A stretch of 64,000 nucleotides of DNA. Source: Deltaproteobacteria bacterium (GTDB lineage: Bacteria > Desulfobacterota > DSM-4660 > Desulfatiglandales > Desulfatiglandaceae). The DNA is taken from the NCBI GenBank assembly GCA_019307815.1, contig JAFDIV010000018.1, forward strand, positions 1-64,000. The letters are read 5' to 3'. A model generated the notes under the pieces. The model saw only the letters and a list, made by a program, of their open reading frames with translations, was not told where the DNA came from and did no database searches. Position numbers and translations under genes: made by a program. Of this stretch, positions 24,320 to 63,178 are shown one piece after another (the stretch's first letter is position 1; each line of letters begins with the position of its first letter).

Positions 24320-24665
24320 CAGGTGCCCTTTTGGGCTTAACCCGCCACCGAGCTCTGGCGGGTTAAAAGGGAACCCCGTGAGAATCGGGGACCGGCCCGC
24401 GGCTGTGAGTGGGGACGAAAGCCGCAACATGGATATTCGTTAAGTGGTTGAATAGTTGAATAGTTAAATCGTTAAATAGTTTATTGGCGGGTGTCCATGT
24501 AAAGCCACTGTCAAGAGAAAGCAATCAGCTACGAGCGGTCAGCCATCAGCTTTACTGAGGAGGTGGATTGACTCTTTGCTGATAGCTGACGGCTGAAAGC
24601 TGAATGCTCAACTGGCGGGAAGGCGCGGTTAGTAGGATGATCCACGAGTCAGAAGACCTGCCTGA
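24320..24665 (+). promoter_or_regulatory. Cobalamin riboswitch 2 (controls the TonB-receptor operon)
   Basis: Canonical pieces in order: CAGGTGCCC, TTAAAAGGGAACCC, GTGAGAATCGGGGACCGGCC, GGGGACGAAAGCCGCAAC, B12 box AAAGCCACTG (ending 24510), GGGAAGGCGCGG and the closing AGTCAGAAGACCTGCCTG. The P6 side holds the shared 90-nt block (24421-24510). Its variable arm (24520-24608) is a long hairpin of about 30 pairs built from AGCTGA-like units, unrelated to the arms of the other two riboswitches. A terminator follows at 24729-24769, giving a transcriptional off switch. Confidence 0.95.
24421..24510 (+). repeat. Shared 90-nt riboswitch block, copy 2
   Basis: Identical to copy 1 over the 90 bases as read by eye, and one substitution from copy 3 at 36604-36693 (GTGGTTG versus GTGGTTA). 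It includes the P6 extension with an 8-base repeat loop and the B12 box. Confidence 0.9.
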
Positions 24666-27826: not shown

Positions 27827-29335
27827 ATGTCGCGAGCAATAATGTTTTTGGGCACTGGTAGTGATGTGGGAAAATCCATTGCTGCCACGGCATTTTGCCG
27901 CATTGTGAAGCGGCGGGGATTCAAGGTTGCTCCCTTCAAGGCCCAGAACATGTCCAATAATTCATACGTCACCATTGAAGGAGGAGAGATCGGTAGGGCC
28001 CAGGTGGCGCAGGCCGAGGCAGCAGGGCTGCTTCCTTCCGTGGAAATGAATCCCATTCTTTTAAAGCCCTCCAGTGGTCAGGCCTCACAGGTGGTTGTCC
28101 GGGGTAAAGTAGCAACGCAGTTAAGCGCCATGGAATACCACGAATACAAAGGCCAGCTGAAACAGATAGTCATGGAATCGTTCAACAGGCTGGCCGCACA
28201 TTATGATGTAATTGTCATGGAGGGGGCAGGTAGCTGCTGCGAGATGAACTTGAAGGACAGAGACCTCGTTAATTTTGAAATGGCAAAGGCTGCCAATGCC
28301 AAATGCATTCTTGTGGCTGACATAGATCGTGGGGGAGTATTTGCCCAGATAATCGGGACATATGGGCTCATGAGCAAGACAGAAAGGCAGCTCACAATAG
28401 GGTTTTTAATCAATAAATTCAGGGGGGATCCCAGGTTGTTTGAAACTGGGATTGCATATATTGAGAACAAGACTGGTAAGCCCGTGTTGGGACTTGTCCC
28501 TTATTTCGAAGATATCCACATTGACGCGGAGGATTCTGTTTCGGTGCAGACGGATAAGAGGCCTCTTAAGAAAATATCAGCCCAAAGCGTAAATATTGCC
28601 GTGCCGAGGCTTCCTGCCATATCCAATTTTACAGATCTTGAGATCTTGGACAAAGAACCCGGCGTGGTGGTGAACTATCTATCGAGGCCAAACGAGTTGA
28701 CCCCCGAATACGACTGGCTCATATTGCCTGGTACAAAGAACGTGATGTCTGATGCCCGATGGTTGGCCCGAAGAGGCTGGAAAAAGAGGATCTGGGAATT
28801 CGCCCGCAGCGGAAAATACGTGTTGGGTATTTGTGGAGGATATCAGTTGCTGGGAGAGTGGATCGAGGATCCCTTTGGCGTTGAGTCTGGTCAGGGTAAA
28901 GTAAGAGGCATGGGCCTATTGCCCGTAAAAACAGTTCTTGAGCAAGAAAAGATTGTAAGGAAGGTTGTTGGAAGGAGCATGGTTTATGATTCCAGTCTGA
29001 GGGGCTATGAAATCCACATGGGCAGGACTTACGTGCAGGGCAAAAGAGGGCATGCATTTGCTTTGATCCACGAACCAAGTAAGAGCAAGGTATGGGAAGA
29101 TGGCTGGGTGACAAATGATATGCAGATAATGGGGACATATATTCATGGCGTGCTGGATTCCCCGAGATTTAGAGGGGAGATCCTTAACAGGATAAGGGCA
29201 TTGAAAGGGTTGAAGACGCGGAGACCAAGGAAAGGACGGCTCGCTCGATTTGCTCAGTATAACAAACTGGCCGACCATTTTGAAAAACATTGTGACATCA
29301 AACGCATCTTTACTCTAGTGGGACTTAAGTCATAA
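27827..29335 (+). CDS. cbiP: Cobyric acid synthase (CbiP/CobQ), copy 1
   Basis: A glutamine-dependent amidase that converts adenosyl-cobyrinate a,c-diamide to cobyric acid. The 502-residue protein has a dethiobiotin-synthetase-like ATP domain (GTGSDVGKS, 9-17; FKAQNMSNNS, 37-46) and a class I glutamine amidotransferase domain with Cys336 in GICGGYQLLG and the histidine of GTYIHG near 437. All key residues are kept. It begins the tightly packed operon cbiP-A-C-D-ET-F-G-H. A second, diverged full-length copy lies at 45082. Confidence 0.96.
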   Translation: MSRAIMFLGTGSDVGKSIAATAFCRIVKRRGFKVAPFKAQNMSNNSYVTIEGGEIGRAQVAQAEAAGLLPSVEMNPILLKPSSGQASQVVVRGKVATQLSAMEYHEYKGQLKQIVMESFNRLAAHYDVIVMEGAGSCCEMNLKDRDLVNFEMAKAANAKCILVADIDRGGVFAQIIGTYGLMSKTERQLTIGFLINKFRGDPRLFETGIAYIENKTGKPVLGLVPYFEDIHIDAEDSVSVQTDKRPLKKISAQSVNIAVPRLPAISNFTDLEILDKEPGVVVNYLSRPNELTPEYDWLILPGTKNVMSDARWLARRGWKKRIWEFARSGKYVLGICGGYQLLGEWIEDPFGVESGQGKVRGMGLLPVKTVLEQEKIVRKVVGRSMVYDSSLRGYEIHMGRTYVQGKRGHAFALIHEPSKSKVWEDGWVTNDMQIMGTYIHGVLDSPRFRGEILNRIRALKGLKTRRPRKGRLARFAQYNKLADHFEKHCDIKRIFTLVGLKS

Positions 29336-36480: not shown

Positions 36481-36510
36481 TTGACAATGTTGGCGGCCTT
36501 TTGTTACAGA
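36481..36510 (+). promoter_or_regulatory. Promoter of riboswitch 3
   Basis: A perfect TTGACA (36481-36486) is followed after 17-18 bases by TTACAG or TACAGA (36504-36510), a weak -10. The aptamer begins about 20 bases later. Confidence 0.6.
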
Positions 36511-36529
36511 AACAAAAGATAAGTAACCT

Positions 36530-36892
36530 AGGTGCTGTAAAAGGCTTAATAGGGAACCCGGTGAGAGTCCGGGACCGGCCCGCGGCTGTGAGTGGGGACG
36601 AAAGCCGCAACATGGATATTCGTTAAGTGGTTAAATAGTTGAATAGTTAAATCGTTAAATAGTTTATTGGCGGGTGTCCATGTAAAGCCACTGTCCGGCA
36701 CTCAACTTAGAGAGGAAATTAACGCAGAACGAAGATTTCGCATATGATAGAGGAACACACCTAACGGAGAGGCTTCGTTTATGAGTTGAGTGCCGGATGG
36801 GAAGGCGCGGTGAGCCCTGTTGAATTTCCCGAGAGGGGAGCCTATTCAACAGGGCAAGTAGGGTGATCCACGAGTCAGAAGACCTGCCTGGG
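36530..36892 (+). promoter_or_regulatory. Cobalamin riboswitch 3 (controls porin-cbiK-ABC-cbiL operon)
   Basis: Canonical pieces in order: AGGTGC, TTAATAGGGAACCC, GGTGAGAGTCCGGGACCGGCC, GGGGACGAAAGCCGCAAC, B12 box AAAGCCACTG (ending 36693), GGGAAGGCGCGG and AGTCAGAAGACCTGCCTG. The variable arm at 36694-36797 has a perfect 14-bp stem (TCCGGCACTCAACT/AGTTGAGTGCCGGA) and a loop closely similar to that in riboswitch 1. A further hairpin (CCCTGTTGAAT/ATTCAACAGGG, about 36812-36855) is inserted before the closing helix. Confidence 0.95.
36604..36693 (+). repeat. Shared 90-nt riboswitch block, copy 3
   Basis: Differs from copies 1 and 2 by one base (GTGGTTA for GTGGTTG) in the 8-base repeat loop. 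The stem bases and B12 box are unchanged. Confidence 0.9.
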
Positions 36893-36960
36893 TGTGTGGA
36901 AGGCATGAATCCTCGCGGAGCGGGATAGTGCCTTAGAGATCTCGAGGATAAAAACGGGAC

Positions 36961-36999
36961 ATCCCCGGATCGATTTATGTGTCGGTCCGGGGATTTTTT
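36961..36999 (+). terminator. Riboswitch-controlled intrinsic terminator
   Basis: ATCCCCGGA and TCCGGGGAT form the stem, followed by seven T. It is nearly the same as the terminator after riboswitch 2, pointing to a common origin of the two control regions. Confidence 0.9.
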
Positions 37000-37087
37000 T
37001 GGAAGAAAGGGGGTGATAGTGGGTTCTGATATCAAGGTGGTAAGCTCGGCACGAACAAATTCAAAGGGCTATGATCAAGGTTAAGGT

Positions 37088-37133
37088 GAACAGGAGGGAT
37101 AGAGCCTGCAAGCGAAATGCTGCCCTCCTGTTC
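37088..37133 (+). other. Leader hairpin before the porin gene
   Basis: GAACAGGAGGG (37088-37098) and CCCTCCTGTTC (37123-37133) pair perfectly over 11 bases. No T run follows, so it is not an intrinsic terminator. It lies in the unusually long leader (37000-37232) between the riboswitch terminator and the porin. Confidence 0.5.
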
Positions 37134-37232
37134 CCAACCTGCCAAAACGAGTAACCCTAATGAGGAGACCCGATTGGCATAAATAAAAGAATAACACCGG
37201 GCCTCCTCGATGTAAAGGAGGTGAGTAAGATA

Positions 37233-38474
37233 ATGAAAAAATGGACTGGACTTATGGCGGTTTTTGCAAGCTTCTTTTTGTTTAACTGTATGTCCTACGC
37301 ACAAGAGATTTCAACCTCTGAGATCAGAAAAGAGTTGAACGAGTTGAAGATTAGGATCAACAAGTTAGAGCAAGAACTGTCACGTAAAGACAGGGAGATT
37401 GAAAAGTTAAAGGCGAAAGTGGAAAGCTCTACAAGGTCATCTGCCAGTGAAGAGGCCAAGGAGGAATGGTTTAACAGGGTAAAATTGTCAGGCGTTATAG
37501 AGGTTGAGGCCAGCAGTGAAAGAAACAAGGTGAAAGACCCTGCTTCTGGTAAGTCCTCAACAACGAGGGATGACGATCTGACTTTGGCCACTGTAGAGCT
37601 TCACGCTGATGCCCAAATCAATAAATATACAAAGGGACACATTGTTTTTATATATGAGGAGGATGAAGATGAGGACCGGGTGAGAATTGATGAAGGCACC
37701 ATCCGGCTGGGAGGGATTGAACAAACCTATAATCTCTATCTGCAGGCTGGCAAGTATTACCCTCACTTTGGTGAACTGAACACATGGTTTATTTCAGATC
37801 CACTCACTCTTGAGGTCTTTGAAATCCAGGAATCGGCCGTAGAGGCCGGGTACGAGGGCGAGTGGTTTTCTGCGGGAGCCGGAATTTTCCACGGAGACGT
37901 GCAGAAAGTAGGAGACGATGAAAGCAGGCTCAAGGGCTTTTTTGCTGACCTGAACTTCCACAATCCTGAAGGCACCATGGGCGGAGTGTCATTGCTGGCA
38001 GGTGCGTCATATATGGACAATGTTGCCGACACTGACACTCTCCAGGATGAAGTCAACCAGATAAAAGATTATGTTGACGGCCTGGCTCTGTACCTGGTGG
38101 CCGACTATGGCAAATTCAGCTTTGGGGCGGAGTACATCACCGCACTGGATGATTTCAGGGCAGGAGAAATGGCCTATGCAGTGGACCGCAATGGCAATGC
38201 CAGAAAAAGTTCACCTGCTGCCTGGAATTTTGAGTTTGCTTACAGGCCGGTGGATCCACTGCAGTTGGCAGTAAAGTATGAAGGAACAAAGGACCTTTTT
38301 GGCCTGTATCCGGAAAAACAATACGGGGTGGCGATAAGTTATGATCTGTTTGAATCCACCACCCTGTCCGCAGAGTATCTCCATGGTGATTACGATGATA
38401 ACAATCAGAATTCAGATGGAGATATCGCGGATTCAAGAGACGCTGTTACCCTCCAGCTTGCGATTGAATTCTAG
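37233..38474 (+). CDS. Outer-membrane porin with coiled-coil N-terminus (LbtU-like)
   Basis: About 413 residues. A signal peptide (KKWTGLMAVFASFFLFNCMS, cut near YAQ) is followed by a coiled coil at about 25-65 (IRKELNELKIRINKLEQELS) and a beta-barrel with many alternating strands, ending in the aromatic AVTLQLAIEF typical of outer-membrane proteins. The architecture fits the LbtU family, whose studied member takes up a siderophore without TonB. Here it is the first gene behind a cobalamin riboswitch, ahead of cbiK and an importer, so a corrinoid, tetrapyrrole or cobalt chelate is a likelier cargo. GTG 37221 lies inside the ribosome site; ATG 37233 is preferred. Confidence 0.8.
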   Translation: MKKWTGLMAVFASFFLFNCMSYAQEISTSEIRKELNELKIRINKLEQELSRKDREIEKLKAKVESSTRSSASEEAKEEWFNRVKLSGVIEVEASSERNKVKDPASGKSSTTRDDDLTLATVELHADAQINKYTKGHIVFIYEEDEDEDRVRIDEGTIRLGGIEQTYNLYLQAGKYYPHFGELNTWFISDPLTLEVFEIQESAVEAGYEGEWFSAGAGIFHGDVQKVGDDESRLKGFFADLNFHNPEGTMGGVSLLAGASYMDNVADTDTLQDEVNQIKDYVDGLALYLVADYGKFSFGAEYITALDDFRAGEMAYAVDRNGNARKSSPAAWNFEFAYRPVDPLQLAVKYEGTKDLFGLYPEKQYGVAISYDLFESTTLSAEYLHGDYDDNNQNSDGDIADSRDAVTLQLAIEF

Positions 38475-38535
38475 ACGGGGGCCATCGTAAAAACATGAAA
38501 CGAAAGGGAGCAATAGAGTAAAGGAGGTTGAGATA

Positions 38536-39510
38536 ATGAAAAGGCTAGGTATTGCACTTGTAATTTTTACGCTTGTGTTTGCTATTGCGTCAGCGGGCCT
38601 TGCAATGGGGCCCAGGCAAGACAAAAAGGCAATTGTGATCGCGTGTTTTGGTACAACATATCCTTCGGCGCTGGTTGCTATAACAAATATCCAAAACCAA
38701 GTAAAAAAGGCATTTCCCGGGGTAAAGGTGAAGTTGGCCTTTACTTCCAATATCATTAGGAATATCTGGCATAATCGTCAGGGCGATGACAAATTCTTTT
38801 CCCAACACAAAGACATCCCCAGAGATATCGTCTATGTAAAGGGCCCCCTTGCCACTATAGCCGATCTTCAGGATGAGGGATACAGGACTATTATTGTTCA
38901 GCCTACCCATATCTATGCGGGTGAGGAGTATGCTGACCTTACTTCTTATGTGGAGGGACTCAATTCCATTAAGACCATCAAGGCAAAGTACATGCCGTTT
39001 AAAAAGCTGGTGCTGGGAAGGCCACTGCTCGGCAAACCCGGAGCGCAATATGATTACCACGAAGACTTTATCCCCGCGGCAAAGGCCCTGGCCGGTGACG
39101 TGGCAATGGCCAGGAAAAACTATGCAGCCCTCGTGTACATGGGGCATGGTAATGAATTCTACAGCACAGGAGTTTACATAGAATTTCAGCAGGCCATGAG
39201 AAAGATGTATCCAGACATTCCTATATTTATTGGGACAGTTGAGGGATTCCCCTCCTTGGCAGATGTAGTGAGGGGCCTTACACATGTGGGAGTAAAGAAA
39301 ATGGTATTGAAGCCATTTATGATAGTTGCTGGTGATCATGCCAACAACGACATGGCTGGCAATGATTCAGATTCATGGAAGATGGTAATTAAATCTAAAG
39401 GCATCAAGGTGATAACCGTGATTCATGGTTTAGGAGAGAACAATGATATTGCCAATATTTTCGTACAGCATATAAGGGATGTAGCCAAAGATAATAATAT
39501 AGAGCTTTAG
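38536..39510 (+). CDS. cbiK: Sirohydrochlorin cobaltochelatase with signal peptide (CbiK)
   Basis: CbiK inserts cobalt into sirohydrochlorin, the first committed step of anaerobic B12 synthesis. The 324-residue protein begins with a clear signal peptide (IALVIFTLVFAIASAGLA, cut after about residue 23), so it is probably periplasmic, as reported for one CbiK of Desulfovibrio vulgaris. The chelatase core follows: ACFGTTYPSA, His125 in VQPTHIYAGEEY, His204 in MGHGNEFYS and His268 in VAGDHANNDM, the likely metal-binding histidines. GGAGG precedes ATG 38536. It lies in a riboswitch-controlled operon with porin and importer genes and four bases before the permease. Confidence 0.95.
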   Translation: MKRLGIALVIFTLVFAIASAGLAMGPRQDKKAIVIACFGTTYPSALVAITNIQNQVKKAFPGVKVKLAFTSNIIRNIWHNRQGDDKFFSQHKDIPRDIVYVKGPLATIADLQDEGYRTIIVQPTHIYAGEEYADLTSYVEGLNSIKTIKAKYMPFKKLVLGRPLLGKPGAQYDYHEDFIPAAKALAGDVAMARKNYAALVYMGHGNEFYSTGVYIEFQQAMRKMYPDIPIFIGTVEGFPSLADVVRGLTHVGVKKMVLKPFMIVAGDHANNDMAGNDSDSWKMVIKSKGIKVITVIHGLGENNDIANIFVQHIRDVAKDNNIEL

Positions 39511-39513
39511 ACA

Positions 39514-40557
39514 ATGATGAAGACCTCACGGGCTGGAGCTATGAATTGGCTCCAGCCAATGCTCCTGTTTTTACTCTTTGGGCTTATTATCCTGTCAGCT
39601 GGGATGGGGTATATACGGATTTCGTTTCTTGAGGTACTAAAGATTGTAATCTGGAAATTAACAGGCGACAGGAGCTTTTTACGCGGTATTGACAGTACAT
39701 TACCTTATGTTGTGTTGGAAGTAAGGCTTCCGCGAATATTGACCTCGGCTATTGTAGGTTCAGGCCTTTCCCTGGCCGGTATAGTCTTCCAAGGCATATT
39801 GCTAAACCCGTTGGCCGATCCTTACACACTGGGCATATCTGCAGGGGCCGCGTTTGGAGCATCCATAGCCCTTTTGTTTGGTATAGCATGGCTCGGTGTT
39901 TACACCGTGCCAATGTTTGCCTTTGTCGGCGCAACGGCTACCCTGGCGGCCGTACTGTTGATTTCATCATTTGATAGGCAGACATCTTCCAACAATCTTA
40001 TCCTGGCCGGGATTATAGTGTCTGCAATACTTTCAGCAGGAGTGAGTTTTATCAAGTATGTGGCAGATGAACAGGTGTCCATAATCATATTCTGGTTAAT
40101 GGGCAGTTTTGCCTCAAAGTCATGGACTGATGTATTACTGACCTTGTTGTTTGTAATGTTAGGCGCTGGGGTCTGCTTTTTCTTTGCCCGGGACCTTAAT
40201 GTAATGAGCCTGGGCGATCGCTCAGCTAGCTCATTGGGGATTGAGACAAACAGGGTGAGAATACTCCTGTTGGTTACAGCATCTTTGATTACTGCGGCCT
40301 GTGTGTCAGTCTCGGGGATAATTGGGTTCGTGGGGCTGGTTGTTCCGCATTTGATGCGTTTCCTCGTTGGGCCTGATAACAGAAAATTGGTGCCAGCATC
40401 TATATTGGCAGGGGCCATATTGCTGTTGTGTGCGGATACCATTACAAGGGCAGTACTGCCTTCGGAGATTCCAATAGGTGTTTTGACTGCCCTCATAGGT
40501 GGGCCTTTTTTCTGCTTTATTTTCAGAAGGCAGCGGGCAATGAGGGTCTACGGGTAA
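39514..40557 (+). CDS. ABC importer permease, BtuC/FecCD family
   Basis: A 347-residue inner-membrane protein with about ten helices, of the type II importer family that carries cobalamin, haem and siderophores. Family marks: LEVRLPRILTSAIVGSGLSL then AGIVFQGILLNPLADPYTLG, GISAGAAFGAS, and GFVGLVVPHLMRFLVGPDNR. It pairs with the ATPase that starts two bases after it. Riboswitch control and cbiK/cbiL in the same operon point to a corrinoid or a precursor as substrate. Confidence 0.92.
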   Translation: MMKTSRAGAMNWLQPMLLFLLFGLIILSAGMGYIRISFLEVLKIVIWKLTGDRSFLRGIDSTLPYVVLEVRLPRILTSAIVGSGLSLAGIVFQGILLNPLADPYTLGISAGAAFGASIALLFGIAWLGVYTVPMFAFVGATATLAAVLLISSFDRQTSSNNLILAGIIVSAILSAGVSFIKYVADEQVSIIIFWLMGSFASKSWTDVLLTLLFVMLGAGVCFFFARDLNVMSLGDRSASSLGIETNRVRILLLVTASLITAACVSVSGIIGFVGLVVPHLMRFLVGPDNRKLVPASILAGAILLLCADTITRAVLPSEIPIGVLTALIGGPFFCFIFRRQRAMRVYG

Positions 40558-40558
40558 T

Positions 40559-41377
40559 ATGGACAAAGTGCCGGTATTCAGAATAGCTGATATAAGCTTT
40601 TCATACGGCAATGTGTCGGTGTTAAGACACGTGTCTTTAGAAATGAGAGAGGGGAATTTTTATGGAATCCTGGGACCAAATGGATCTGGCAAGACTACCT
40701 TATTGGATGTGATGGCTGGGATCAAGGCTCCGGATTCGGGCAGGGTGTTGTTTAAGGGAAAGGACATAAGAAACTATAACAAGAAGGAGCTGGCAAAAGG
40801 TATAGCCTTGGTGCCCCAAGAGTTTTATATAAACTTCCCTTTCACGGTAAAAGAAATTGTGCTTATGGGCAGACACCCATATATGCCAAGGTTCGGGGCA
40901 GCCTCAGCAGATGACATAGAAATGGTTCACTATACCATGAGGCTCATAGAAATAGAGGATTTTCAAGACAGATATGTTACAGAGCTCAGCGGAGGGGAAA
41001 AGCAAAGGGTGGTCTTTGCAAGAGCGCTTGCACAGGATACCCCTGTCCTCATGTTAGATGAAGGCACATCTAACATGGACATCCGGCATACCTTGAAGAT
41101 TCTGGGGATAGCGAGGCACAAAGTCAGAAAAGACAACAGGACAGTTATTGCAGCAATGCATGACTTGAATCTGGCTGCGCAGTTCTGTGACCACCTGGTC
41201 TTTTTAAAGGATGGGAAAATAGTTGCCCAGGGTCCCATTGATACTGTACTTAATGAACAAAATGTTAAACAGACGTTTGAAGTAGAGGCAAAAATTTATT
41301 TTGATGAGTACTCATCTTCAAGGCGGGTGGCTTATAGAATAGGGCCAACGCCTGCGCCTATCCGCCGTAAGGCCTAA
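40559..41377 (+). CDS. ABC importer ATPase, BtuD/FepC family
   Basis: A 272-residue cytoplasmic ATPase. Walker A GPNGSGKTT (about 39-47), Q-loop VPQEF, signature LSGGEKQR, Walker B VLMLDEG (the usual proline after DE is replaced by glycine) and the switch histidine in AAMHDLNLA are all present. It energises the permease encoded immediately upstream. Confidence 0.93.
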   Translation: MDKVPVFRIADISFSYGNVSVLRHVSLEMREGNFYGILGPNGSGKTTLLDVMAGIKAPDSGRVLFKGKDIRNYNKKELAKGIALVPQEFYINFPFTVKEIVLMGRHPYMPRFGAASADDIEMVHYTMRLIEIEDFQDRYVTELSGGEKQRVVFARALAQDTPVLMLDEGTSNMDIRHTLKILGIARHKVRKDNRTVIAAMHDLNLAAQFCDHLVFLKDGKIVAQGPIDTVLNEQNVKQTFEVEAKIYFDEYSSSRRVAYRIGPTPAPIRRKA

Positions 41378-41416
41378 AATCAGTGGGGTATATGCACAAA
41401 ATATAAGAGGTTAGTC

Positions 41417-42826
41417 ATGAGATTTGGGAGATATCTTGTTTGCGCACTTTTCTTTTTTTTGGGAATCACAGCGGCTGATGCCTCGACCCTAAGCTTTATT
41501 GATAGATCAGGCAACAAGATAACAGTGACAAAACCATTTCACAGAATCATCTCTCTTTATGGCGCCCATTCTGAGAATCTTTTTTCATTAGGGCTTGATA
41601 AGGAAGTAATCGGGGTTTCAAAGAATGAGGCATACCCGCCGTTGGCCCTCAAAAAGCCGGTGTTTAGTTACCATGATGATGCTGAAAAATTCTTGGCAGC
41701 CCGGCCAGACCTGGTTCTGATCAGGCCCATGATCGCCAGGGGCTACCCCAACTTGGTGTTGAAGCTCCAGCAGGCTGGCATTTGTGTGGTCTCATTGCAA
41801 CCAAACACAGTTCAGGAGATGTTTTCATACTGGAAAACACTGGGCTTGCTTACAGGGAGAGAGAAAGAGGCCGAGGAGATGATAACAAGGTTTAAACAGG
41901 GGCTCAAAAGGATCGAGTCACTTGTTGACAAGATACCTCCTTCAAGGAGAAAAAGGGTATATTTTGAATCGATCCATAGCAAGATGAAGACCTTTGCTCC
42001 ATCTTCCATTGCTATCTTCGCCTTAAAAAGCGCTGGAGGGATAAATGTGGCAGCCGATGCCCATGCCAGGCATGGGACGAATATAGCCGCGTATGGTAAA
42101 GAGAGAATTCTGTCCCACGCCCATGAGATTGACGTTTATCTGGCCCAACGTGGGGCCATGAACCATGTAACTGTCCGGAAGATCAAGGAGGAGCCTGGAT
42201 TTGGCGCCATAAAAGCCGTAAGGGACGGCAAGATATTTATCATTGATGAAAAAATAGTATCCCGCCCCACCATGAGGCTATTAGACGGAATCTACGAAAT
42301 TGGCAGGTTCCTTTATCCTTCAGTATTCAATGATGTATCGAGTTTTTTGCACAAGCAGAGGCTAACAAGGGCCGAATTTGCAGAGATGTTTGTAAAGATG
42401 ATGAACATTGCATTAAAGACACCCGACTATAGGCGTGACATTGCAAAGAGATCAAGGGCAGTTCACAGGTATGGTGATTTTAAGGACGTGGATTACTGGG
42501 GCAATAATTACAAATTTATTGAAACAGCAGTTTACAGGGGCCTTTTTCCAAATGTCAAAAAGGATATGTTTTTTCCTAATAGATTCGTAAAACGATCCAC
42601 AGTGGCATATGCCCTGTTCATGTATTTTGATTTTCCTGAGCCCACAGCCAATATCACTATTTCAGATGTCAAGGACTCTGATCCACTATTTGAGCAGATA
42701 CGAGCCGTGGTTGATTTGGGCATCATGCCTGTCAATTCCCAAGGTGCCTTTATACCAGGAGGAAACTTGTCGGGAAAGGAACTGTACAGAATATTGACCA
42801 ATGCAAAGCAAGTGACAGGACAGTAA
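41417..42826 (+). CDS. Periplasmic binding protein with C-terminal SLH-like domains
   Basis: Residues 1-22 form a signal peptide. Residues about 25-300 are a BtuF/TroA-type class III binding protein (KITVTKPFHRIISLYGAHSE, LAARPDLVLIRPM, VSLQPNTVQEMFSYWKTLGL). From about residue 316 a 154-residue extension has the signature of S-layer homology repeats: LTRAEFAEMF, then FKDVDYWGNNYKFIETAVYR with RGLFPN and VKRSTVAYALFMYFD, and a third diverged unit ending LSGKELYRIL. Family members normally end at 270-300 residues, so this is a fusion. It may tether the binding protein to the cell wall or outer membrane close to the porin. Confidence 0.85.
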   Translation: MRFGRYLVCALFFFLGITAADASTLSFIDRSGNKITVTKPFHRIISLYGAHSENLFSLGLDKEVIGVSKNEAYPPLALKKPVFSYHDDAEKFLAARPDLVLIRPMIARGYPNLVLKLQQAGICVVSLQPNTVQEMFSYWKTLGLLTGREKEAEEMITRFKQGLKRIESLVDKIPPSRRKRVYFESIHSKMKTFAPSSIAIFALKSAGGINVAADAHARHGTNIAAYGKERILSHAHEIDVYLAQRGAMNHVTVRKIKEEPGFGAIKAVRDGKIFIIDEKIVSRPTMRLLDGIYEIGRFLYPSVFNDVSSFLHKQRLTRAEFAEMFVKMMNIALKTPDYRRDIAKRSRAVHRYGDFKDVDYWGNNYKFIETAVYRGLFPNVKKDMFFPNRFVKRSTVAYALFMYFDFPEPTANITISDVKDSDPLFEQIRAVVDLGIMPVNSQGAFIPGGNLSGKELYRILTNAKQVTGQ

Positions 42827-42835
42827 GGAAGCAAA

Positions 42836-43570
42836 ATGCCTTCTACTGGCACTTTATATGGAGTTGGCGTAGGGCCAGGAGACCCTGGGCTTATAACATT
42901 AAAGGCTGTTGATATCCTGAAAAGGGTGGATGTGGTGTTTGCGGCTTCATCCACCAAAAACCACTATTCCCTTGCCATGAATATTGCCTCTAGGGTTGTT
43001 TCAAAACATATCCCTGTATTGTTTCTGAAATTCCCAATGACCCGAGACAGAGAGAGGCTTAAAAAGGCCTGGGACAGTAATGCAAAGGAGATATTAGAGC
43101 ATATTAGAAAAGGCAAAGATGTAGCCTACATCACCCTTGGAGATCCCATGACATATAGCACATTTGGTTATATTATGCAGGCAATTCAAAGGCTGGACCC
43201 TTCGGTTCCCGTAAGTATTGTGCCAGGAATCACTTCCTACCATGCCGCCGCAGCAGCATCCCGACACATAATTGCAGAGGCAGAGGAGTCTTTTACTGTG
43301 GTCTCAGGGGCCCTTGGGGCCGAGCAATTAAGACGCATAATCCACCATACGGACAACGTAGTTATGTTAAAGGTCTACCGGAACTACAAAGAAATTTTGG
43401 ATGAAATAAATCGCCTAGGTCTTACAAGATGCACTAAGCTGATTTCCCGTTGCGGCCTCGAGGATGAACATATTGTATATAACCTGGATAACTGCCGGGA
43501 TAAGATGCCCCCTTACCTGTCTTTGCTCCTTATCAAGAAGAAGGGGCTAAAGGAGGAAGATGAAACATAA
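42836..43570 (+). CDS. cbiL: Cobalt-precorrin-2 C20-methyltransferase
   Basis: A 244-residue tetrapyrrole methylase that adds the C-20 methyl right after cobalt insertion. Marks: LYGVGVGPGDPGLITLKAVD at the start, VVFAASSTKN, AYITLGDPMTYSTFGYIMQA and VSIVPGITSYHAAAAAS. It supplies the methyltransferase missing from the cbi operon at 27.8-36.3 kb and directly follows cbiK in the pathway, in an operon that also holds cbiK and an importer. Confidence 0.95.
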   Translation: MPSTGTLYGVGVGPGDPGLITLKAVDILKRVDVVFAASSTKNHYSLAMNIASRVVSKHIPVLFLKFPMTRDRERLKKAWDSNAKEILEHIRKGKDVAYITLGDPMTYSTFGYIMQAIQRLDPSVPVSIVPGITSYHAAAAASRHIIAEAEESFTVVSGALGAEQLRRIIHHTDNVVMLKVYRNYKEILDEINRLGLTRCTKLISRCGLEDEHIVYNLDNCRDKMPPYLSLLLIKKKGLKEEDET

Positions 43571-43670
43571 GGGGAAGCAGAGTTCTTGTTCGTGGGGTTA
43601 AGAAGAATGCTGCTTAGTCTGGGATTTTTGGCATAATGGGCCGTTAAAAATCTCGGAGGACAAATATAAC

Positions 43671-43901
43671 GTGCAAGGGAAAAAGGCTTTTGCCTTTGTG
43701 GATTACAGTATTTGCAATCCCCGGCAGTGTAATGCTGAAGAGGGCATTTGCTGGTCAGTAAAGGCGTGTACGCACAAGGTGATTAAACAGATAGATGGGG
43801 CGTTTGAACCCCCTGTTGTATTCCAGGACCTGTGTATGGGTTGCTGGGACTGCATTGAAGCATGCCCCTTGTCGGCTGTTCAAATGCGTGAAATTTTATG
43901 A
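43671..43901 (+). CDS. Small ferredoxin-like 4Fe-4S protein
   Basis: A 76-residue protein starting at GTG 43671 with GGAGG ten bases upstream. Eight cysteines: Cys15, Cys20, Cys27 and Cys33 (an irregular C-x4-C-x6-C-x5-C) and Cys55, Cys58, Cys61 and Cys65 (CMGCWDCIEACP). The N-terminal part (FVDYSICNPRQCNAEEGICW) resembles the iron-sulfur module of RLI/ABCE-type proteins. It follows cbiL and may give electrons for a reductive corrin step or cobalt reduction; that is inference. Confidence 0.85.
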   Translation: MQGKKAFAFVDYSICNPRQCNAEEGICWSVKACTHKVIKQIDGAFEPPVVFQDLCMGCWDCIEACPLSAVQMREIL

Positions 43902-43987: not shown

Positions 43988-45061
43988 ATGAAAAGGAAGT
44001 CTTCTTCACGGCTCTATCTTTTTCTGGCCTTCCTTATCGGTTGTGCCGGCCTGGCCTATTGTTTTGGGGCCCTTGACTTTTCCTGGATTGTGAAAGATCC
44101 CTCAGTCTTGTGGAAAAGTCTCTGTAAGCCTTTGCTACGGCTTGTGCTTTTCATATCACTTGGCCTTTTTATCGGGCAGCTTATCGAGGCCATAGGGTGG
44201 ACTAATAGGCTTGCTATAATGGTGCGCCCTCTTATGCGCTGGGGGCATTTGACAGAAAAGATTGGCGCAGCGTTCACCACGGCCTTTTTCTCCGGTATCG
44301 CCGCTCTTGCCATGATTATTTCCTTTTACAAAGATGGAGCAATGGAGGAGAGAGAGGTGACCTTGGCTGTTTTGCTTAATACCTTCCCATCCTATTTTCT
44401 GCACCTGCCAACCACGTTTTTCATAATATTGCCATTGGCCGGCTCTGCTGGGGCCATATACTTGTTAATAACCTTTTTTGCTGCTATTTTGCGGCTCATA
44501 GTAATCCTGTTGTGGTCAAGGAGACATTTTCCAGAACCCGAAGATTTTCCCACAGAGGTAAAGGCCAAGGACAGGTGGAACTGGAAAAAGATACTGCAAG
44601 ACATGAGGAGCAGATTTATGAGCAGGCTGGGCAGAATAATGGTGCTTGTTTTGCCCATTTATGTTCTGATTTTGCTTTTATCCCATGCGGGTTTTTTCCT
44701 ATGGATAAGAAAACTACTTGCTGAACATGTAGGAACAGCGTTTATGCCCCTGGACGCCATGTCAATAATTGTTGTAAGCCTTATGACAGAGTTTACCTCA
44801 GGATATGCCGCTGCAGGGGCCCTATTGAAGGCCGGCACCCTAAACGTTGCGCAAACCGTGCTGGCTCTGCTAGCGGGGAATATAATTTCGACCCCTGTTC
44901 GATCATTCAGGCATCAAATGCCTGTCTATATGGGCATTTTCAGCCCTGCTAAAGGGGTCAAGCTGATGATAATGACACAGGGATTCAGGGTGCTTAGCCT
45001 AATGGTGGCCGGCGGCATCTTTCTGATGGCTATGCTTTTGCTTCAAGACATTCACTTTTGA
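43988..45061 (+). CDS. Nucleoside-recognition (Gate) domain membrane protein
   Basis: A 357-residue integral membrane protein with about eight hydrophobic segments and two Gate-type modules (SGIAALAMIISFYKDGAMEE, about 105-124, and MTEFTSGYAAAGALLKAGTL in the second half). The family includes transport-like proteins of uncertain substrate. It lies between the ferredoxin and the second cbiP (four-base overlap), so it probably acts in the cobalamin system, perhaps in metal or corrinoid movement. A second Gate protein is found next to the chelatase genes at 63 kb. Confidence 0.8.
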   Translation: MKRKSSSRLYLFLAFLIGCAGLAYCFGALDFSWIVKDPSVLWKSLCKPLLRLVLFISLGLFIGQLIEAIGWTNRLAIMVRPLMRWGHLTEKIGAAFTTAFFSGIAALAMIISFYKDGAMEEREVTLAVLLNTFPSYFLHLPTTFFIILPLAGSAGAIYLLITFFAAILRLIVILLWSRRHFPEPEDFPTEVKAKDRWNWKKILQDMRSRFMSRLGRIMVLVLPIYVLILLLSHAGFFLWIRKLLAEHVGTAFMPLDAMSIIVVSLMTEFTSGYAAAGALLKAGTLNVAQTVLALLAGNIISTPVRSFRHQMPVYMGIFSPAKGVKLMIMTQGFRVLSLMVAGGIFLMAMLLLQDIHF

Positions 45062-45081
45062 CCTATAGATGGAAGTTGGAA

Positions 45082-46641
45082 ATGACTGTTAGTTTAATGC
45101 TTCTAGGGACGGGAAGTGATGTGGGCAAATCCATTGCTGTAACAGCGTTTTGCCGGATCCTGAAACGGAGGGGGTTGAAGGTAGCTCCCTTCAAGGCCCA
45201 GAATATGTCAAACAACTCATTTGTGACAGTTGAAGGAGGGGAAATAGGAAGAGCCCAGGTGGTGCAGGCAGAGGCGGCAGGCCTGCTGCCCTCGATTCAC
45301 ATGAATCCCATATTACTTAAGCCATCGAGTGGTCAAGCTGCCCAGATCATTCTACAAGGCAAGGTTGCCACTCAGATGAGCGCCATGGACTATCACAAGA
45401 TAAAACCAAGGCTCGTTGAAATTGTTATGGATTCATACACAAGGCTGTCAAAGAACTATGATGTTATCGTGATGGAAGGGGCGGGCAGTTGTTGCGAGAT
45501 GAATCTTAAGCATAATGACCTTGTGAATTTCCAAATGGCCAAGGCTGCGGAGGCATCATGTATCCTGGTTGCAGACATTGATCGGGGAGGGGTGTTTGCA
45601 CAGATCATAGGCACTATGGAGCTCATGACAAAAGAAGAAAGGGATATGACAATAGGATTTCTTATTAATAAGTTCAGAGGAGATCCGCGACTGTTCGAAT
45701 CAGGCATTAAATATATAGAAGAGAAAACAGGCAAGCCTGTACTGGGCCTTGTGCCATTTTACCATGATATTCTCATTGATCCTGAAGATTCAGTTGCCGT
45801 GCAGGAGGACAGAAGGGGCATTAAACCAGTAACAAGTAACACCGTAAATATAGGAGTAGTGAGGCTGCCCGCCATTTCCAATTTTACTGATTTGGAAATA
45901 CTGGAAAGGGAGCCGGATGTGGTGGTGAATTATTTGTCAAGGCCATCACAGCTTGATGATGGATACGACTGTCTGGTAATTCCCGGAACAAAGAATGTGA
46001 TGGAGGATGCCGACTGGCTTAGGAAGAGGGGCTGGAGAAAGACAATTTATCAGTTTTTGAGCCAAGGACGTATAGTAATGGGGATCTGTGGAGGATATCA
46101 GCTCCTTGGGCAGACAATAAAAGATCCTTATGAGATTGAGTCAAAAAGGGCTGAGGTGAAAGGCCTTGGTGTGTTGCCCCTCCAAACAGTATTGGAGCGA
46201 GAAAAGATTGTTCGTGAGGTGAGAGGAATATGCTTAGCCAATGGTAAACATATTGTTGGTTATGAAATACACATGGGCAGGACTCGACCCATGACAAATA
46301 GTGGTGAACCTTATTTGAGAATTCATGGGGTTAACCGTCGCAACTGGTGGAATGATGGATGGATAAGAGAAGACAGGCAAGTTATGGGTACTTATGTTCA
46401 TGGGATCTTTGATGCACCGGGATTCAGAGCTGATTTTCTGAACAGGATCAGGGTAAGCAAAGGATTGAAGCAAAGACCTGCCAGGAGAGGAAGACTGGTG
46501 AGGTTCAGAGAATATGACAAGCTGGCGGATCATTTTGAGGGCTATTGTGATGTGCAACGTATCCTTAGGCTGGCGGGATTGGATCAAGGAGTTAGGAGAC
46601 TGGGGAGAGGACAAGGAAAAAGCCTAAAGGTCAAAGGTTAA
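45082..46641 (+). CDS. cbiP: Cobyric acid synthase (CbiP/CobQ), copy 2
   Basis: A second complete CbiP of about 519 residues, very similar along its whole length to the one at 27827 (for example FKAQNMSNNSFVTVEGGEIG and DIDRGGVFAQIIGT). The ATP motif GTGSDVGKS, the amidotransferase cysteine in GICGGYQLLG and the histidine in GTYVHGIFD are kept, so it should be active. The start at 45082 gives the family opening; an upstream TTG at 45058 is unlikely. The C-terminal 17 residues are an added basic tail. It ends the porin-cbiK-cbiL operon. Confidence 0.94.
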   Translation: MTVSLMLLGTGSDVGKSIAVTAFCRILKRRGLKVAPFKAQNMSNNSFVTVEGGEIGRAQVVQAEAAGLLPSIHMNPILLKPSSGQAAQIILQGKVATQMSAMDYHKIKPRLVEIVMDSYTRLSKNYDVIVMEGAGSCCEMNLKHNDLVNFQMAKAAEASCILVADIDRGGVFAQIIGTMELMTKEERDMTIGFLINKFRGDPRLFESGIKYIEEKTGKPVLGLVPFYHDILIDPEDSVAVQEDRRGIKPVTSNTVNIGVVRLPAISNFTDLEILEREPDVVVNYLSRPSQLDDGYDCLVIPGTKNVMEDADWLRKRGWRKTIYQFLSQGRIVMGICGGYQLLGQTIKDPYEIESKRAEVKGLGVLPLQTVLEREKIVREVRGICLANGKHIVGYEIHMGRTRPMTNSGEPYLRIHGVNRRNWWNDGWIREDRQVMGTYVHGIFDAPGFRADFLNRIRVSKGLKQRPARRGRLVRFREYDKLADHFEGYCDVQRILRLAGLDQGVRRLGRGQGKSLKVKG

Positions 46642-53443: not shown

Positions 53444-53980
53444 CTATAGTTTTTGCTTCCTTGCATACTCCCTCTGGATTTTTTTCATCCAGCCGGATAA
53501 CTTTACATTTCTGACCAAATAATAGTGGGGATTGTATGGCTTGATATCGATGACAGGACTTCCGTCTATAGCTTCAAATCCTTGCACCTTCAATACATTA
53601 CCATTTCGTTCCACTAACTTCACGGCAGTAACCAGAACAGGATTTGGTCTAACCGGACTACATGTGGCAAACACTCCCACTAGTGGCAAGTCTTTGCGGC
53701 CCATTGGGTGTACCTTGATCAAATTTCTATTCTCTCCCTTTGTTTCATGGGCCCAGTAAAGCACAAGAATATGGGAAAAATCTTCAATGCCATCCAATAT
53801 CCCATCGAATTTATCATCAATTATTATTTCAGATATGAGGTTCCGTATTTTTCTTTCCCTCTTCCGGAGGGCCTCATCAATCCTGGCCTTTGAAAGATCG
53901 CCTGAATCCTCTGTCAGGCTAGGTTCCTTCAATTCACTTTTTACAATGCCTACAGGCCTCAAAATTATTTCCTCTACCAT
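53444..53980 (-). CDS. trmO: tRNA (t6A37) methyltransferase TrmO family
   Basis: A protein of about 178 residues of the UPF0066/TrmO fold, which uses S-adenosylmethionine to methylate threonylcarbamoyl-adenosine 37 of tRNA. Marks: LRPVGIVKSELKEP at the start, FDGILDGIEDFSHILVLYWA, HPMGRKDLPLVGVFATCSPV, RPNPVLVTAVKL and DGSPVIDIKPYNP. The ATG at 53980 overlaps the stop of the FmdE-like gene. Homologues are often found beside metal-related genes in anaerobes, as here at the end of an uptake operon, so a role outside tRNA modification is possible. Confidence 0.9.
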   Translation of the reverse strand: MVEEIILRPVGIVKSELKEPSLTEDSGDLSKARIDEALRKRERKIRNLISEIIIDDKFDGILDGIEDFSHILVLYWAHETKGENRNLIKVHPMGRKDLPLVGVFATCSPVRPNPVLVTAVKLVERNGNVLKVQGFEAIDGSPVIDIKPYNPHYYLVRNVKLSGWMKKIQREYARKQKL

Positions 53981-54591
53981 CACCACCCCCTGGTGTAGTT
54001 TTCGGCGCAAGGAATACAGGCGGGTTTTCCCTCTCTTAAACGTGCTCTGGGTTCCATAACGCTTTCGCCGCAGAAATGGCATATAACCGAGTCAAATATT
54101 TTGGCCTTTTCCGGGATTTCGACATGCACTTCTTTGGTATGAAAAAGTTTATTTTTGTCTGTGGATAATATCTTATTAATCCATTTTTGCTGAAGGTCCC
54201 AGAATTTCCTTTGATCATCTTCTGTAGCATCATCTGAAAATGCCTTTTTCATGATCATATTTTCCTCTTTGCTTCTTTTAAAAACATCTGCGCTGAGTGC
54301 AATTCGCACCGCCTTGTTATTATCGCGCCTGATAACGGTAAAGACCATTTTCCCGTAATCCCGGAATATGAGATTCCCTTTTCCAATGGAACAGCCCAGC
54401 ATACTTTGAATGGCGTCAATGGCACAGCCATCTGACTCTACAATGGCCACCAACTCTTCATCTTGTGAACGCTTCAGCTCCAGCCAGTCAATGGCGACTT
54501 TGCTGGCCATGTAACCTATGGCAAGCCCAGCACAAAGGTGTCCGTGAAATTTAATGGCATCCTGCAAGCCCTTTTCATATTCACTGGTCAT
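53980..54591 (-). CDS. FmdE-family protein with C-terminal zinc-ribbon motif
   Basis: A 203-residue protein of the FmdE type, named after a protein found with molybdenum/tungsten formylmethanofuran dehydrogenases. The FmdE domain covers about 1-130 (FHGHLCAGLAIGYMASKVA; ESDGCAIDAIQSMLGCSIGK then GNLIFRDYGK, with conserved His and Cys). A zinc-ribbon-like pair CHFCG/CIPC lies near the end. It is encoded in an operon with a TonB receptor and FecCD-type importer, as is common for this family, which suggests a role in handling the imported metal. The metal is not shown. Confidence 0.88.
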   Translation of the reverse strand: MTSEYEKGLQDAIKFHGHLCAGLAIGYMASKVAIDWLELKRSQDEELVAIVESDGCAIDAIQSMLGCSIGKGNLIFRDYGKMVFTVIRRDNNKAVRIALSADVFKRSKEENMIMKKAFSDDATEDDQRKFWDLQQKWINKILSTDKNKLFHTKEVHVEIPEKAKIFDSVICHFCGESVMEPRARLREGKPACIPCAENYTRGW

Positions 54592-54605
54592 ATCTGACTC
54601 CTTTT

Positions 54606-56756
54606 TTAAAATGTTATTTCAAGGGACGCGTTGTATATCCTGCCAGGGGCAGGGACTTCAAATTCTTCTTCATATTCTTTGTCAAATAGATTTCTTATGC
54701 CAAGATAGAGATTCCACTGGCCTGTCTTCCTCCATACTGGATACCTGACCAATAGATCTGCAGTAATAAAACTGTCAAGTTTTTCTAAGGTTACCCCATT
54801 TGAAAAGATAGAAGTACCCCCAGGCGCGTCTGCCCCCCAGAGGACCGGGACCTTACGGGAGGCCACATATCGGAATGTGATCTTGGCCATGATGCTATCC
54901 GGCCTTTTATACTGAATGTCCAGGTTTGCCTTATACTTTGGCAGCTCTGACAGCTTATCTGAAAGGGTATTGCTCCCGTCAAATACGTCTCCTTCTTTCT
55001 TTGTATCCTGAAAAGTAAAGTTTCCAAATGTGGAAAATGATCCGCGTAACTGGGCCTTGAAACTAAATTCTACGCCTTGAAATTTAACCTTGTCTATATT
55101 GTAAACAACCCTGCTGGGGGAATAGCCAAATATTGTACGTATATAATCATCCACCTTGTAGTAATAATAACTCATACCAAACCAGATACCCGGAATCTTA
55201 TTAATATCCAGGCCCACTTCGTACTGGTATGCATCCTCATAAGTAAGATTTTTTCGCGAAATATTGGTCCTGTTATCCACCTCGGGTCTATAACCCGCAT
55301 AATACCAGTATATTTCGGGGTTGGTGGGAAAGCGGGCCGCCTTGGCTCCTTTAAAGGAAATTTCAATCCCCTTTGACAGCATGTAGGTAAGCCTCGCCTT
55401 AGGGGCCAAGACCTCATCATCCAACAAGGCCTTGGTGGATTGAAACCCTGTTGGATATCCGTTGAAATAACCCTGTACTTGGTCCACTGATTGATCAGCA
55501 TGGAAATCATCATAGCGCAGACCTAGATACAGCCTCAGGTTCTGATTTAATGTCCAGGTATCATCTACATATATGCCGTGCAGCCGGCTTGCATCCCATT
55601 CTGGTGATGATTCAGAAGGCTGCCTCGAGAAGAAGCCCTGTTTTATAAAGGTATTTTTTATACTACCAAATCCCTGATAATTCCCTTCACCTCCAAGGCC
55701 AAAATTATGATCACCTTTTTCCATTGATGTCTTGATTAACCATCCCCATGTGCGATCAGGTGTCATCTCGCGTTTTAACACAGTTTCCCCAGTGTTATAT
55801 GAAGTAATTTTTTCATTCCTATCTTCATTGTTGAAATAGACCTTTATATCTGTATTAAATCCCAGAATATTCTTTTTGAGGCCTAGGTCCAATTCATAGC
55901 GTTCTTTAGTATAGTAGGTGCCATCTCCATGCTTGTCTCCCCACGGAAAAGTTACCCAAGGTCCTGTAAGAAAGATCCCCTTGCTTTCTGGATAATCGCT
56001 TTTATACCCAGGATTGCCTTTCTTATTTTCCACGGGCATATTGTAATCTCCCTGGCTATACCGGATGCCAAAGGAGAGCTGGCCGTCATTTCCAAAAGAA
56101 TAGATCAGGTGGCCATTGAAACTCTGGCGGTCAACATGGCTATTCCTTAGGTAGCCATCTGTCTTGTTCTGGTCAACCATGAGCATAACTCCTAAAGGAC
56201 CTTCTTTGCCCGTACAGCTTGCTCCAAGACTATAGGTTCCATATCTCTCAATACCGGCGTGTAATCTAATTTTTGTTTCAGGAGGAGGACTTTCAGGAAT
56301 AAAATTAATAATACCGCCTAATGTATTTCCGTATTTTGCATCAAAGCTACCCTTTTTAATGCCAATCTCTCTAAAATCAGAAAAAGAAAATTGGGACCAG
56401 TCAACATAATAGCCTCCCATTACTCCGGCTCCATTGAGAGGCCTTCCGTCTAAAAGCACCTCATATCTTTGCTCATCCAGGCCTCGCAACCTTACCTGGG
56501 TCTGCTTTGGGGTAAGGATGGATCTTCTTTGGACATCAATGCCAGGGCTGTTGGAAAGAATATCGGGTATGCGAGAAACTGTTATTTTATTATCAGTTTC
56601 TATTTTTAACGAATTTGCAGGGCTTGTGACTGGTTTTTTCCTAGGAGCCGTTACAATAATGGGCTCTAAGTTTACCTTTTCTTCTGCAGCAGTGCTGTGT
56701 GCTAGGCCGCTAAGCACAAGAAGTATTGGAAATAGAATAATCGTTCTTCTCAGCAT
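54606..56756 (-). CDS. TonB-dependent outer-membrane receptor
   Basis: A 716-residue receptor with a signal peptide (RRTIILFPILLVLSGLAHST, cut near AAA/AEE), a TonB-box-like EPIIVTAPR, a plug domain (ISRIPDILSNSPGIDVQ-like region; QVRLRGLDEQRYEVLLDGRP; KYGNTLGGIINF) and a barrel ending in NASLEITF. It sits between the binding protein and the FmdE gene of the importer operon. No riboswitch is found upstream. Substrate probably a metal chelate. Confidence 0.92.
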   Translation of the reverse strand: MLRRTIILFPILLVLSGLAHSTAAEEKVNLEPIIVTAPRKKPVTSPANSLKIETDNKITVSRIPDILSNSPGIDVQRRSILTPKQTQVRLRGLDEQRYEVLLDGRPLNGAGVMGGYYVDWSQFSFSDFREIGIKKGSFDAKYGNTLGGIINFIPESPPPETKIRLHAGIERYGTYSLGASCTGKEGPLGVMLMVDQNKTDGYLRNSHVDRQSFNGHLIYSFGNDGQLSFGIRYSQGDYNMPVENKKGNPGYKSDYPESKGIFLTGPWVTFPWGDKHGDGTYYTKERYELDLGLKKNILGFNTDIKVYFNNEDRNEKITSYNTGETVLKREMTPDRTWGWLIKTSMEKGDHNFGLGGEGNYQGFGSIKNTFIKQGFFSRQPSESSPEWDASRLHGIYVDDTWTLNQNLRLYLGLRYDDFHADQSVDQVQGYFNGYPTGFQSTKALLDDEVLAPKARLTYMLSKGIEISFKGAKAARFPTNPEIYWYYAGYRPEVDNRTNISRKNLTYEDAYQYEVGLDINKIPGIWFGMSYYYYKVDDYIRTIFGYSPSRVVYNIDKVKFQGVEFSFKAQLRGSFSTFGNFTFQDTKKEGDVFDGSNTLSDKLSELPKYKANLDIQYKRPDSIMAKITFRYVASRKVPVLWGADAPGGTSIFSNGVTLEKLDSFITADLLVRYPVWRKTGQWNLYLGIRNLFDKEYEEEFEVPAPGRIYNASLEITF

Positions 56757-56802
56757 AAAAACAATCCTCCTTTAACATCCGACCTCGTGGTTATTTCAAC
56801 AG

Positions 56803-59791: not shown

Positions 59792-59930
59792 TGCCCAACC
59801 TTAGACCTATCCTTTGTGCGAGGTGTCTGGTAGCCTGTGATAAGCCCACAAAAAAAGCCAAAAAGTCCCATTGGAATTCTCTCCAAGCGAGCCTTCTTGG
59901 CTTATATCCTAAAAAAATTTTAAATTTTCT

Positions 59931-59953
59931 AAGCGCAATTTCTTATTGCGCTT
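59931..59953. promoter_or_regulatory. Operator-like palindrome before the importer operon
   Basis: AAGCGCAAT-TTCTT-ATTGCGCTT has perfect 9-bp arms. It lies just after the predicted RNA start and about 140 bases before the permease start, so it may be a repressor site; a leader hairpin is the alternative. Confidence 0.6.
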
Positions 59954-59968
59954 TCTAATCCAGAGAGG

Positions 59969-59997
59969 CGTTTAGATAATTATCGCCTGTTTGTCAA
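59969..59997 (-). promoter_or_regulatory. Promoter-like site of the importer operon
   Basis: On the minus strand TTGACA (59997-59992), a 17-base spacer holding the palindrome GATAATTATC (59975-59984), and a weak -10 TAAACG. GATAAT-type dyads resemble half of a Fur box, so iron-type control is possible. Confidence 0.45.
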
Positions 59998-60018
59998 GGG
60001 AAAAGGTGAGGACTTTTA

Positions 60019-62040: not shown

Positions 62041-62067
62041 GGTCGATTACTCCCACAGGTGAGAGAT

Positions 62068-63150: not shown

Positions 63151-63178
63151 AGTTCCTCCATGATGGCAACTTTTTACT

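Follow-up and report, generated by a model that had tools for sequence, protein, structure and literature searches.

The window discussed here is a stretch of 64,000 nucleotides from contig JAFDIV010000018.1 of a Deltaproteobacteria bacterium, part of a genome assembly of 4.1 Mb in 75 contigs that is 98% complete. It carries a gene set for cobalamin (vitamin B12) synthesis in which CbiK, a member of the sirohydrochlorin cobaltochelatase family, bears a signal peptide and is grouped with a porin, an ATP-binding cassette (ABC) importer and the methyltransferase CbiL under B12 control. This grouping suggests that cobalt insertion may take place outside the cytoplasm. In our opinion the best-supported reading is that cobalt is inserted there and that the product is then taken up by the operon's own importer; we hold it with somewhat less than even confidence.

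An earlier reading of the same letters, the original prediction, had placed a cobalamin riboswitch ahead of these genes. This is borne out by the match to RF00174 and by a good terminator 3' of it, because of which the riboswitch probably acts by switching transcription off. The genes from the porin to CobQ likely form one operon, because they lie on one strand with gaps of 1-101 bases. The features are as follows.

36513..36905, + strand: cobalamin riboswitch aptamer (RF00174, 68.1 bits, cut-off 31.5, complete model 1-189), one loop with an insert of about 200-240 nucleotides
36961..36994, + strand: intrinsic terminator-like hairpin, the likely expression platform (14 pairs, 8 of them GC, then TTTTTT; -25.6 kcal/mol)
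37221..38474, + strand: LbtU-family outer-membrane porin with signal peptide and N-terminal coiled coil (NF033652, 258 bits, cut-off 90)
38536..39510, + strand: CbiK, sirohydrochlorin cobaltochelatase family, with Sec-type signal peptide (PF06180, 260 bits, cut-off 26.2)
39514..40557, + strand: FecCD/BtuC-type ABC permease (PF01032, 320 bits; best NCBIfam match BtuC, 284 bits, below its cut-off of 461)
40559..41377, + strand: ABC ATPase of BtuD/FecE type (PF00005, 111 bits; corrinoid ATPase PRK09536, 272 bits, below its cut-off of 537)
41417..42826, + strand: class III substrate-binding protein with C-terminal SLH domain (PF01497, 61.7 bits; PF00395, 34.1 bits)
42836..43570, + strand: CbiL, cobalt-factor II C20-methyltransferase (TIGR01467, 233.9 bits, cut-off 163.25)
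43671..43901, + strand: small 4Fe-4S ferredoxin-like protein (Fer4, 23.9 bits, cut-off 21.1)
43988..45061, + strand: polytopic membrane protein with Gate domain, probably CbtX, COG3366 (PF07670, 33.5 bits)
45058..46641, + strand: cobyric acid synthase CobQ/CbiP, the second copy in the window (NF001989, 624 bits, cut-off 273)

The predicted list of an LbtU-like porin, CbiK, importer, cbiL and ferredoxin is correct by these profile matches. The operon as first drawn is right up to 43901 and ends too early, since the Gate-domain protein and the second CobQ come after that point.

In the course of events that we propose, CbiK would be secreted and would act as the organism's sirohydrochlorin cobaltochelatase. 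Sirohydrochlorin would either leave the cytoplasm after its synthesis there or be scavenged via the porin, and in the periplasm it would receive cobalt. The importer of FecCD type, served by the binding protein with the SLH domain, would then bring Co-sirohydrochlorin, an octacarboxylate, back to the cytoplasm, where CbiL, translated from the same mRNA, would methylate it. Plentiful cobalamin would make the riboswitch halt transcription.

Judged from its sequence, the export of CbiK is clear. The N-terminus reads MKRLGIALVIFTLVFAIASAGLA-MGPRQDKK, with a predicted signal peptide from residue 1 to about 23 and a site of AXA type; the hydrophobic N-terminus and the strong Shine-Dalgarno (SD) site at the first ATG agree with the clear signal peptide originally claimed. 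The SD duplex energy is -12.3 at that first ATG and a weak -3.4 at the ATG inside the gene, behind the signal; on this ground we reject a dual start for cbiK of the window.

The wider picture comes from 395 genomes of the phylum, from which we took the strongest CbiK loci and read 147 CbiK N-termini, setting the export state by hand for three CbiKs that have no start codon in the scanned stretch. Exported forms make up 110 of the 147, non-exported ones 37, and the two sets are fully separated by hydrophobicity score (at least 1.9 versus at most 1.43). On the CbiK tree the state switches at least 13 times, and the clade of the window lies apart from that of Desulfovibrio vulgaris CbiKP. In the whole genome to which the window belongs, the window CbiK is the single match to the CbiK and CbiX families, and CbiL is found above cut-off once. 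An exported CbiK is likewise the sole CbiK/CbiX-type enzyme in 54 genomes from 25 families. CbiL is present in 52 of these 54 genomes versus 8 of 186 with neither chelatase (Fisher p 1.8e-41; the genomes are not independent, and the contrast covers the 25 families), a level similar to that in genomes with only cytoplasmic CbiK (14 of 16) or only CbiX (41 of 52). CobN occurs in 23 of the 51 exported-only genomes searched, and 27 have CbiL without CobN. Exported CbiK appears to stand in for CbiX and cytoplasmic CbiK. Because the frequency of CbiL matches that in the CbiX-only and cytoplasmic-CbiK-only genomes, this phylum-wide evidence, which is new here, suggests that exported CbiK behaves like a working chelatase of de novo B12 synthesis.

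Could the exported protein instead be a carrier of haem or another tetrapyrrole that feeds the importer, as has been proposed for D. vulgaris CbiKP and as in the case of FetB? The closest entry in the PDB is indeed CbiKP (2xvx, 113 bits), the CbiK-like haem-binding FetB (9b86) scores 100 bits, and haem-binding proteins are in the nearest-fold list of the operon's binding protein. We nevertheless give a carrier role very little chance. The catalytic His pair, His154/His216 in D. vulgaris CbiKP numbering, is kept in the window and is essentially invariant among the exported CbiKs (His154 in 110/110, His216 in 109/110), whereas at the positions of the haem ligands His96 and His103 the window protein has Ala and Glu; His96 is seen in 34 of the 110, and the pair is rare in the family. 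With the metal-chelating pair nearly invariant and the haem-ligand pair absent here and rare elsewhere, the residue pattern favours a chelatase over haem carriage. Against the curated equivalog NF047852 the window CbiK scores 167 bits, below the cut-off of 400. Its closest relatives in named genomes are at 8 loci of metagenome-assembled genomes (Desulfobacteraceae, Thermodesulfobacteriota, 'Deltaproteobacteria' and one Kiritimatiellota); the Kiritimatiellota CbiK (L239) is 58% identical to that of the window, by horizontal transfer or through a binning error.

The neighbourhood of CbiK and importer extends beyond the window. A FecCD gene lies directly 3' of CbiK at 29 of the 103 loci with the exported form (17 families) versus 3 of 34 with the cytoplasmic one; each of these three genomes also carries a second, exported CbiK, and none of the 13 genomes that lack an exported CbiK shows the arrangement (p 0.018). 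As a strict sign of export importer linkage is ruled out, for importers in the families f17 and f90 adjoin a signal-less CbiK. The f17 loci L151, L155, L159 and L160 have lost the signal of the importer-linked CbiK, and separate exported paralogs are present in the same genomes.

The binding protein had been called BtuF-like. Its class III fold stands; its match to the BtuF model NF002894 is weak (29.4 bits, cut-off 234). Contig C8 of the genome carries a second B12-riboswitch locus, with genes for a binding protein that matches BtuF at 158 bits (below the same cut-off), along with a BtuC-type permease, an ATPase and ExbB/ExbD/TonB-type proteins (the last three assigned by eye, from sequence and position), and a TonB-dependent receptor similar to B12 and haem receptors lies behind riboswitch 2 of the window. 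The window binding protein is 54-67% identical to seven CbiK-linked relatives and 29% identical to the C8 protein. Aligned to Escherichia coli BtuF, it keeps the equivalents of Glu72 and Glu202, as do 31 of 31 CbiK-linked relatives; these we take from BtuF structures to be the residues that dock on BtuC. At Tyr50, Trp66, Trp85, Phe162 and Trp196, which we likewise take to form the corrinoid cage, it has N, H, M, S and H, and the relatives have mostly H/G/N/S, H/R, M, A/S and R/H. Conserved within the subfamily are His51, Arg103, Met105, His187 and Lys191. On these residues the linked binding protein would not be a typical corrinoid binder, and its pocket, which does not resemble that of BtuF, is a new finding here.

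Cobalamin has no free carboxylates, against eight on sirohydrochlorin and on its cobalt complex; for this reason the basic pocket would suit Co-sirohydrochlorin, the putative cargo, better than B12. It would also suit polycarboxylate metallophores. One may thus imagine that the porin and the binding protein import such a metallophore, or a cobalt complex, for B12 synthesis, and that CbiK uses part of the cobalt in the periplasm. The LbtU family is named after siderophore uptake, the pocket region has conserved His, Arg and Lys, and the nearest folds of the binding protein include siderophore and iron binders. However, the fold model (mean predicted local distance difference test score, pLDDT, 81) matches haem and B12 binders just as well and does not discriminate the cargo, and the cobalamin riboswitch and the B12 enzymes next door speak against metallophore uptake, which we consider improbable. 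The C-terminal SLH domain (PF00395), absent from the original prediction, is unusual on a Gram-negative ABC binding protein and is perhaps a cell-wall tether; a similar long C-terminal extension occurs in eight relatives (L058, L062, L047, L057, L044, L052, L056 and L046).

Several points weigh against periplasmic insertion followed by re-import. We know of no sirohydrochlorin exporter. No importer lies directly downstream of 74 of the 103 exported CbiKs, and an importer-linked CbiK without signal peptide is found at L151, L159 and L171, and also at L155 and L160. Counted over phylogenetically independent pairs, the linkage of CbiK and importer is 3.9 to 0.5, in the right direction and not significant. 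The pocket residues were assigned by aligning proteins that are distantly related (29% identity of the window protein to the C8 BtuF-like one). A CobN-ChlI-ChlD set lies at the end of the window, beside TonB/FecCD genes. Finally, a cytoplasmic CysG/Met8-like protein in the genome keeps the chelatase aspartate Asp104, and enzymes of the CysG/Met8 type are able to insert cobalt, though they prefer iron (PMC7018833). In view of this protein and the CobN-ChlI-ChlD set, the window CbiK cannot be called the sole chelatase of any class. The genome also contains dsrA (578 bits), for which siroheme is needed; since siroheme can come from the CysG/Met8-like protein, CbiK is free for cobalt.

The cytoplasmic dehydrogenase/chelatase with its Asp104 also speaks for co-regulation without any loop. 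On that account the operon simply bundles corrinoid salvage (porin and importer) with synthesis (cbiK, cbiL and cobQ), cobalt insertion is cytoplasmic, carried out by a CysG/Met8-type enzyme or by CbiK before its export, and exported CbiK serves scavenged tetrapyrroles. Indeed an equal gene set was labelled btuCDF plus cbiK-cbiL by Rodionov in 2004, and the importer linkage persists beside CbiK without signal. We regard this explanation as rather doubtful. If CysG/Met8 were sufficient, CbiL should often be left in genomes free of CbiK and CbiX, where it is seen in the 8 of 186 mentioned above. We further read the CysG/Met8-like protein in 49 genomes with exported CbiK only; the aspartate, which marks the bifunctional enzymes (criterion from PMC7018833), is gone in 18 of them. 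Moreover, the binding protein has no corrinoid cage, and a separate B12-controlled importer is present. As to the periplasmic loop of the original prediction, it gains from CbiK export, from the sole CbiK/CbiX type, from the co-occurrence with CbiL and from the atypical pocket; the activity of CbiK in the periplasm and the closure of the loop are still something that we infer.

Of the 18 genomes that lost Asp104, four (G162, G187, G211 and G353) have dsrA and CbiL, with CobN not found, and in these the exported CbiK is the only recognisable sirohydrochlorin chelatase; a divergent second copy missed in G353 is possible, as its family mostly has a second match. In three of the four, a strong SD site precedes an in-frame internal start that follows the signal peptide, and by their sequences lineages with such a start may make both CbiK forms. 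A further idea is that one cbiK gives an exported and a cytoplasmic form, through a second start or inefficient export, and that the cytoplasmic form feeds CbiL. Of the 110 exported CbiKs, 36 have a Met close to where the signal is predicted to be cleaved, and in the families f39 and f71, where Asp104 is lost in the precorrin-2 dehydrogenase and dsrA is present, the internal SD energies are strong (-5.8 to -10.7). Internal SD strength differs between Asp104-lost and Asp104-kept genomes with p 0.0009, in a post hoc comparison of families that are not independent and with GC content not controlled. Given these limits and the weak internal site in the window, we think dual localisation very unlikely to be the explanation here. 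The f39/f71 CbiK genes with strong in-frame internal starts right behind the signal are at L070, L081, L084, L094, L064, L082, L095 and L076.

Periplasmic insertion of cytoplasmic sirohydrochlorin would call for an exporter, and here the Gate-domain protein comes in. Such a protein is found near 14 of 23 cbi clusters with exported CbiK versus 0 of 11 with cytoplasmic CbiK, too small a sample for phylogenetic control. From its location next to cbiK, CbtX has been predicted to be a cobalt transporter (PMC545781). In the window, the PF07670 match and a position as in PMC545781 make the Gate protein probably CbtX; a fold search with it gave no significant match, the best weak ones being CNT nucleoside transporters. 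With a cytoplasmic chelatase the need for a cobalt importer would be no smaller, and for this reason an exporter role is worth considering; CbtX is a weak candidate for it. For many families of the phylum one may then propose, tentatively, obligatory extracytoplasmic cobalt insertion, export of sirohydrochlorin (possibly through CbtX/Gate) and re-import via the basic-pocket binding protein; we see this general scheme as conceivable and less likely than not.

Some further observations concern the surroundings. The porin more likely starts at ATG 37233 than at GTG 37221, with AGGAGG just 5' of it (SD at about 37214-37222). Upstream in the window lie cbiA, cbiC, cbiD, cbiET, cbiF and cbiH, and cbiG by position and sequence. 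The two full-length CobQ/CbiP paralogs (27827-29335 and 45058-46641) each have their own riboswitch in front. An insert of up to about 200 nucleotides in the same aptamer loop is common to cobalamin riboswitches of this genome (36611-36814, 22149-22352 on the minus strand and 24428-24512; also L005 and L003); the inserts are 79-99% identical and fold into a long hairpin, and the aptamers around them are more diverged. ChlI/ChlD-type ATPases and a CobN-like protein sit amid two clusters of TonB, FecCD and binding-protein genes (53444-63928 in the window, 64545-73005 on contig C26), possibly a system for dechelation and uptake of haem or another tetrapyrrole.

Synthesis of tetrapyrrole cofactors is taught as a cytoplasmic affair. 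If cobalt is indeed inserted outside, the choice of metal would be made in a compartment with another metal supply, the pathway would cross the inner membrane twice, and cells could share or scavenge a free intermediate that lies outside the cytoplasm. The puzzling role of periplasmic CbiK in Desulfovibrio can also be put to the test in organisms where an exported CbiK is the sole chelatase of CbiK/CbiX type.

How does the system compare with known ones? Salmonella CbiK (1qgo) shares the family and the active site with the window protein, and is cytoplasmic and not known to be linked to an importer. E. coli BtuF-BtuC-BtuD shares the class III binding protein, the type II importer and the docking Glu72/Glu202; in the window, in contrast, the aromatic cage has given way to His/Arg/Met/Ser, an SLH domain is added at the C-terminus and the BtuF model is matched at 29 bits. 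The Legionella siderophore porin LbtU shares NF033652 at 258 bits, whereas the window porin is under a cobalamin riboswitch and next to cbiK. D. vulgaris CbiKP (2xvx), in agreement with the original prediction that periplasmic CbiK is known in Desulfovibrio, is exported, has the catalytic His pair and is reported to have a cobalamin riboswitch near its gene; Lobo in 2008 and 2017 and Romao in 2011 reportedly described it as a periplasmic cobaltochelatase. The window CbiK differs in belonging to a separate clade, in having no haem ligands His96/His103 and in having no cytoplasmic CbiK alongside. The core of the operon has been known since 2004, when cbiK-btuCDF-cbiL was described under one B12 element in Desulfovibrio (Rodionov et al., PMC545781). 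Five genomes of f42, a family with two CbiKs and probably kin of Desulfovibrio, show the order CbiK, FecCD, ATPase, binding protein, CbiL or the like. Riboswitch, cbiK, importer, binding protein and cbiL are thus shared, while the window adds an LbtU-type porin at the front, the SLH domain on the binding protein, a ferredoxin, the CbtX-like protein and CobQ, in a genome without a second, cytoplasmic CbiK.

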